DNA from: Prochlorococcus sp. AG-363-C02
Lineage (GTDB): Bacteria; Cyanobacteriota; Cyanobacteriia; PCC-6307; Cyanobiaceae
Direction: 5' to 3'
DNA: 64,000 nucleotides
Assembly (NCBI GenBank): GCA_003278345.1
Contig: QCFH01000001.1
Span: 78,836-142,835 of the forward strand
Below the pieces are notes generated by a model that was not told the DNA's origin, made no database searches, and was given only the letters and a program-made list of their open reading frames with translations. Shown here piece after piece: positions 45,396-45,818 of this stretch; the stretch's first letter is position 1, and each line of letters starts with the position of its first letter. A program made the position numbers and the translations under genes.

Positions 45396-45548
45396 ACACT
45401 AACCTAGATAAATGATCAATGGCCCAGTGTTTACTTTATAAGAATACTTAACCGATGAAGCCTATAGCTTGAAATATTAACTAAATCTAAAAAAATACCT
45501 TTTTGTATCAAAGTGAACTCCCTTCGGATGAGCTTCGCATAAGAATGA

Positions 45549-45650
45549 TTTTGTAGCAACCGCTACAAAACGTTCACCCTGATACCTTCAGGGCGCAGTT
45601 CCAACCAGGGCATGGAACGGGGACCTGGGGAAAACCATAGGACTCTGCAA
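45549..45650 (+). ncRNA. Structured 5' leader, candidate downstream-peptide / glutamine-II type riboswitch
   Basis: Hairpin 45549-45570; CGTTCA 45571-45576; hairpin CCCTGA/TCAGGG 45577-45593; stem GTTCC/GGAAC 45598-45618 whose loop CCAGG 45605-45609 pairs with CCTGG 45624-45628. Confidence 0.75.
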
Positions 45651-45818
45651 ATGGCAACTCTCACTTATCGAGGTAAATCTTACGTTCAGCATAAAGAACC
45701 TGTTGAGAAGCAGTTTGTTGAACTTACATACAGAAGGAATGTCTATTCAAACAGGCAAAAAGATGCGTCAAGCGACCATCCCCTTCTGACTTATCGTGGA
45801 ATAAATTATCAAAATTGA
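45651..45818 (+). CDS. DUF4278-like mini-protein
   Basis: 'TLTYRGKSY', 'ELTYRRNVY', 'LLTYRGINY' repeats; AGGA 8 nt before ATG 45651. Confidence 0.8.
   Translation: MATLTYRGKSYVQHKEPVEKQFVELTYRRNVYSNRQKDASSDHPLLTYRGINYQN

Follow-up and report, generated by a model that had tools for sequence, protein, structure and literature searches.

On the forward strand of the 64,000-nucleotide stretch of Prochlorococcus sp. AG-363-C02 DNA analysed here (hereinafter the window), a structured leader precedes a mini-gene whose 55-residue product is established by homology as a DUF4278 protein (gathering cut-off of PF14105, 25.3 bits; Table 1). A cmscan of the whole window against Rfam 15 returned a single match above cut-off, the glutamine-II riboswitch aptamer RF01704, for which the cut-off is 33 bits and to which the leader aligns over the full length of the covariance model (positions 1–60 of 60). 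The protein consists of three YRxxxY units (LTYRGKSY, LTYRRNVY, and LTYRGINY); related genes have two such units and phage ORFs one. A sequence search of the PDB recovered no solved relative of it. Downstream of the gene lies an inverted repeat that is a putative terminator.

Table 1. Features of the leader, the mini-gene, and the flanking DNA (positions in the window).
Feature	Position	Strand	Basis or remark
Conserved upstream element GTATCAAAGTGAAC	45505–45518	+	Consensus GTATC-N4-TGAAC-N2-C; centre −41.5 from predicted start
−10-like hexamer AAGAAT	45541–45546	+	4/6 to TATAAT; TATAAT at same place relative to box in aligned leaders
Predicted transcription start	45553	+	First G of GTAGC; −10 spacing, yfr6 analogy (PMC1242208)
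NtcA-consensus operator GTAGCAACCGCTAC	45553–45566	+	GTA-N8-TAC, +1 to +14; in 182/217 leaders
Glutamine-II riboswitch aptamer (RF01704)	45568–45629	+	62.9 bits, E 7.5e-13 over the window
Pseudoknot helix, 5′ strand CGTTC	45571–45575	+	Pairs with 45615–45619; invariant in 36/36; crystal structure of family (PMC6698751)
P1 hairpin CCCTGA-TACCT-TCAGGG	45577–45593	+	Compensatory changes in 4/5 pairs counted
Joining strand GTTCC	45598–45602	+	No conserved aptamer stem; no covariation with GGAAC
P2, 5′ strand CCAGG	45605–45609	+	Both-side changes in 5/6 pairs of P2
Pseudoknot helix, 3′ strand GAACG	45615–45619	+	Partner of 45571–45575
P2, 3′ strand CCTGG	45624–45628	+	P2 covariation
Shine-Dalgarno-like AGGA	45639–45642	+	Sequence; 8 nt before ATG at 45651
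DUF4278 mini-gene, 55 aa, three YRxxxY repeats	45651–45818	+	PF14105, 45.4 bits, E 1.1e-11
Terminator-like inverted repeat TTAAAAAGAGCT ... AGCTCTTTTTAA	45833–45889	+	12-bp perfect arms, long loop

The initial annotation had read this region as a downstream-peptide (glutamine-II) leader before a DUF4278 gene of a picocyanobacterium. All the strings that it named lie where it had placed them, and its reading is borne out by the comparison with the RF01704 model, the DUF4278 match, and the covariation of both P1 and P2 by compensatory change. An RF01704 match is joined here to a DUF4278 mini-gene, an arrangement already described in marine picocyanobacteria, so that the assignment to this family is both correct and already known: the locus is a genuine, ordinary glutamine-II riboswitch, for which glutamine sensing and translational gating would be expected by analogy with the family. 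Like other members, it has the complete model with pseudoknot, P1, and P2, a picocyanobacterial host, and a short DUF4278 ORF about 20 nt downstream; it departs from them in its joining strand, GTTCC in place of the commoner GTTCG, and in nothing essential. Within the host family, 203 of 300 genomes carry at least one RF01704 copy, and the organism's own genome has three, namely this locus and two more. Two genomes each possess several copies of equal score (G193:C1:994009, 1147127, and 1209516; G075:C1:809450, 961360, 2087494, and 2423368), which suggests recent duplication of the riboswitch locus in each of them. For comparative analysis we assembled 217 picocyanobacterial leaders, after removing three non-cyanobacterial regular-expression hits; an ORF with a YR-x3-Y/F motif lies downstream, next to the leader, in 211 of them.

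In the crystal structure of a glutamine-II riboswitch the pseudoknot is formed by a 5′ CGUUC with GAACG, together with a long-range C:G pair and the helices P1 and P2 (PMC6698751). When this published fold was compared with shuffles in a set of 36 diverse relatives, 96.7% of the cells were paired as against 84.4% after shuffling, nine pairs displayed compensatory (both-side) changes, and 91 cells were changed on both sides as against 25.4 in shuffles, a score that none of the 500 shuffles reached; sliding the fold by one column led to a clear loss. Thus, both homology and covariation establish the aptamer. The CGUUC/GAACG pseudoknot and the long-range C:G pair are present here and invariant in all 36 relatives; hence, they furnish no covariation signal, and their support comes from the family crystal structure (PMC6698751). 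The initial annotation had instead considered CGTTCA (45571–45576) to be single-stranded and had drawn a stem between GTTCC (45598–45602) and GGAAC (45614–45618), with CCAGG and CCTGG forming a pseudoknot. Since the published fold covaries while GTTCC/GGAAC does not (65.6% of cells paired, equal to shuffles, with zero compensatory changes), CCAGG/CCTGG has to be reassigned to the ordinary P2 helix, and CGTTC supplies the 5′ strand of the actual pseudoknot. Compensatory changes are abundant in P1 and P2 and absent from GTTCC/GGAAC, which we eliminate as a part of the aptamer.

Immediately upstream of the aptamer is hairpin 1 (TTTTGTAGC-AACC-GCTACAAAA; 9 bp, 45549–45570), whose central portion, GTAGCAACCGCTAC, conforms to GTA-N8-TAC, the consensus of NtcA sites. 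This pattern recurs just upstream of the aptamer in 182 of the 217 leaders, beginning 17–23 nt before CGTTC, and an NtcA gene is encoded in the same genome (G000:C8:1891-2463; 355.7 bits, over the cut-off), thereby establishing both the box and the NtcA gene. In the aligned leaders a TATAAT-like −10 element lies 12 to 7 nt upstream of the G that opens GTA; we therefore place the transcription start at this G, in which case the ATG would begin at nt 99. A generic promoter scan recovered only chance-level matches. Close parallels are yfr6 and PMM1846 of the MED4 strain, which likewise have the riboswitch before a small YRG-repeat ORF: in yfr6 the first transcribed G was mapped after a TATA element, the ORF starts from nt 97, and expression falls upon nitrogen depletion (PMC1242208), while an NtcA motif was reported in the promoter of PMM1846 (PMC6316151). 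Unlike yfr6, which codes for 33 residues, the present gene codes for a three-repeat protein of 55 residues and adjoins a NifU-like gene. With a start at 45553, the T-run of hairpin 1 would be promoter spacer rather than RNA, and the T-run and A-run flanks show no covariation. The strings of the proposed 9-bp hairpin are indeed there, with a core of 5 bp, but it is mostly a DNA feature, and the predicted start together with the non-covarying flanks eliminates it as an RNA stem beyond the central 5 bp. The reading that best accounts for hairpin 1 is an NtcA operator placed where transcription is predicted to begin, to which NtcA would bind.

Further upstream we recovered a second conserved element, with the consensus GTATC-N4-TGAAC-N2-C (also rendered as TTTGTATCA-N3-TGAAC-N2-C), whose placement attests to a conserved promoter geometry: counted from the predicted start, GTA-N8-AAC begins at −49 or −48 in 121 leaders out of 182 and at −50 or −47 in three further ones, with none at other offsets between −66 and −20. 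A centre at −41.5 is the position typical of class II activators. The left half of the element resembles a half-site of the glnA NtcA boxes (reverse complement TTTTGTATCA), and we regard it as a probable NtcA-like/CRP-family site. Among 14 genomes of the same genus, 10 of the 18 matches to GTATCNNNNTGAACNWC fall in glutamine-II leaders. The element is usually retained in leaders that lack the +1 NtcA box; in four of these (L214, L560, L563, and L565) the aptamer follows it at a distance of approximately 49–50 nt, which would suit a transcription start at the aptamer itself. These four are leaders of a CGTTCAGCT-type aptamer without the NtcA/hairpin segment. We found no prior description of a GTATC-N4-TGAAC element at −41.5 in the literature consulted.

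The operator may possibly double as a short RNA hairpin. Transcribed from +1, GTAGCAACCGCTAC would yield a 5-bp 5′-terminal stem-loop, the transcribed portion of hairpin 1, which might protect the short mRNA or insulate the aptamer, with the NtcA match as a second use or incidental; we consider this a serious if somewhat improbable alternative. A fold of 45553–45660 predicts this hairpin, and at positions 4/11, where the glnA NtcA boxes are mostly non-palindromic, 112 of 113 leaders pair. Where the NtcA box has been lost, palindromes are kept at the start site, which is what raises the prospect of an RNA hairpin: among the 35 leaders without GTA-N8-TAC, 22 have an inverted repeat with arms of 4 bp or more (6.9 expected), mostly at the same place, and 15 have one with arms of 5 bp or more (2.6 expected). 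These palindromes vary in both sequence and loop (GTTGA-N5-TCAAC, GCAGC-N4-GCTGC in L074 and L531, GTAG-N5-CTAC, GTAGT-N3-ACTAC, and GCAAG-N10-CTTGC), with loops of 2 to 10 nt, a variation that a dimer site of fixed spacing is not expected to tolerate. However, the box-less leaders are few and fall into roughly seven or eight groups, many of them from one Synechococcus-type genus, so the palindrome counts are not independent, and the other palindromes could be explained by other regulators. Within the GTA-N8-TAC leaders the inner pairs carry little signal: 10 of 113 have a C-A mismatch at pair 5-10, pairing does not exceed that of shuffles, and the flanks show no covariation. In a Synechococcus-type paralogue (L021, L027, L135, L246, L438, and L439) the place of the NtcA box is taken by GTTGA-N5-TCAAC, and L021 shows a compensatory change in that palindrome (GTCGA/TCGAC). 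As with the −41.5 element, the literature consulted yielded no earlier description of start-site palindromes replacing a lost NtcA box. An NtcA operator remains our preferred reading of hairpin 1.

The stem that we eliminated from the aptamer could nevertheless belong to an OFF state, in which, without glutamine, GGAAC would pair locally with GTTCC and not with the 5′ CGTTC. In its favor, the unconstrained centroid fold of 45553–45660 contains GTTCC/GGAAC and pairs CCTGG with the Shine-Dalgarno region; at this locus the pairing of the P2 strand with that region amounts to 6.5 expected pairs as against 1.0 in shuffles. Against it, GTTCC/GGAAC lacks compensatory changes across the relatives, in which it is paired only to the 65.6% given above, and the pairing of the P2 3′ strand with the Shine-Dalgarno region equals the shuffle level over 203 leaders (0.72 expected pairs in both), which eliminates that strand as a family-wide anti-Shine-Dalgarno; we therefore judge an OFF-state helix of this form to be unlikely. 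The joining strand GTTCG fared no better in that role (mean z −0.73, not above control segments), and over all leaders neither pairing exceeds its controls. At this locus the joining strand GTTCC shows partial complementarity to GGACT (45640–45644), which lies in the ribosome-binding region. One subgroup of leaders has a 7-bp match between the joining strand and the Shine-Dalgarno region (AGTTCGA/TCGGACT). P2 and the ATG are separated by a nearly constant distance across leaders, and this fits translational control. For type 2 glutamine riboswitches that precede DUF4278 genes, expression is activated by glutamine (PMC6316151); published reporters show an ON switch (PMC6316151, PMC6698751), and a Kd of 190 µM was reported for a relative (PMC6698751). 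That the leader as a whole is a chance structure and no riboswitch can practically be dismissed: we found nothing in favor of it, and it is contradicted by a score of nearly 30 bits over the cut-off, by the spread of the aptamer through the host family, and by its covariation.

The aptamer also extends to viruses. In IMG/VR contigs the aptamer pattern was recovered at 37 viral places, six of them spot-checked by cmscan, and every one is followed by an ORF of 16–58 aa with a YRGxxY motif (e.g., MKVTFVYRGVAYTRVIG); some of the contigs might be host sequence (e.g., L339 and L347, with host-like aptamers). The T7-like cyanophages P-SSP7, P-GSP1, S-RIP1, and 9515-10a have RF01704 matches of 48–52 bits, and their mostly unannotated ORFs lie between psbA and the gene for the major capsid protein (L573, P-SSP7, AY939843.2 20521–20631; further loci L574, L575, and L576; viral loci L315–L432). 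These leaders share with the present one the aptamer family and a small ORF with YRGxxY; unlike it, the phage-type leaders examined have no GTA-N8-TAC, and their ORF is often of only 16–18 aa. Glutamine riboswitches were already mentioned in T4-like cyanophages (PMC9964418, PMC9602691), and ORFs of 17–100 aa have been reported (PMC2864571). The new material is comparative, comprising the promoter geometry and the phage peptides.

Taken together, it is highly probable that this glutamine-II riboswitch controls a DUF4278 mini-protein resembling the glutamine synthetase-inactivating factors and that the promoter receives a nitrogen signal of its own. The activator-type element at −41.5 and the −10 box would drive transcription from 45553. 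Under nitrogen scarcity, with high 2-oxoglutarate, NtcA would occupy GTAGCAACCGCTAC and block initiation; when nitrogen is plentiful, NtcA would leave and the leader would be transcribed. Glutamine would then stabilize the CGTTC/GAACG pseudoknot and P2, freeing the ribosome-binding region 10–20 nt downstream, and the DUF4278 protein thus made would presumably damp glutamine synthetase. A precedent is seen in gifB of Synechocystis (IF17), which is likewise repressed by NtcA, as is gifA, and combines a glutamine riboswitch with a DUF4278 domain; unlike the present locus, with the DUF4278 part alone, it encodes a complete inactivating factor, and its aptamer is of type 1 (glnA-type) (PMC6316151). 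Inhibition of glutamine synthetase by the DUF4278 mini-proteins is unproven (PMC6316151).

By itself the locus is one further example of a riboswitch-gene pair that is already published. Comparison across leaders allows the operator in the DNA to be told apart from the aptamer in the RNA and corrects the pseudoknot assignment, and the −41.5 element along with a start at the NtcA box offers a testable promoter model for genes that presumably hold glutamine synthetase in check in phototrophs abundant in the ocean. A broader, rather doubtful proposition is that picocyanobacteria maintain a fixed cassette of −41.5 activator element, +1 NtcA operator/RNA hairpin, aptamer, and YRG-repeat protein, of which phages carry a stripped version, with YRGxxY perhaps being a glutamine-gated effector acting on nitrogen metabolism. 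Because the cyanophage version is reduced to the aptamer and a tiny YRGxxY peptide, the YRGxxY unit may itself be the active effector, and the phage copies suggest that viruses may use the same glutamine-gated YRG peptides.
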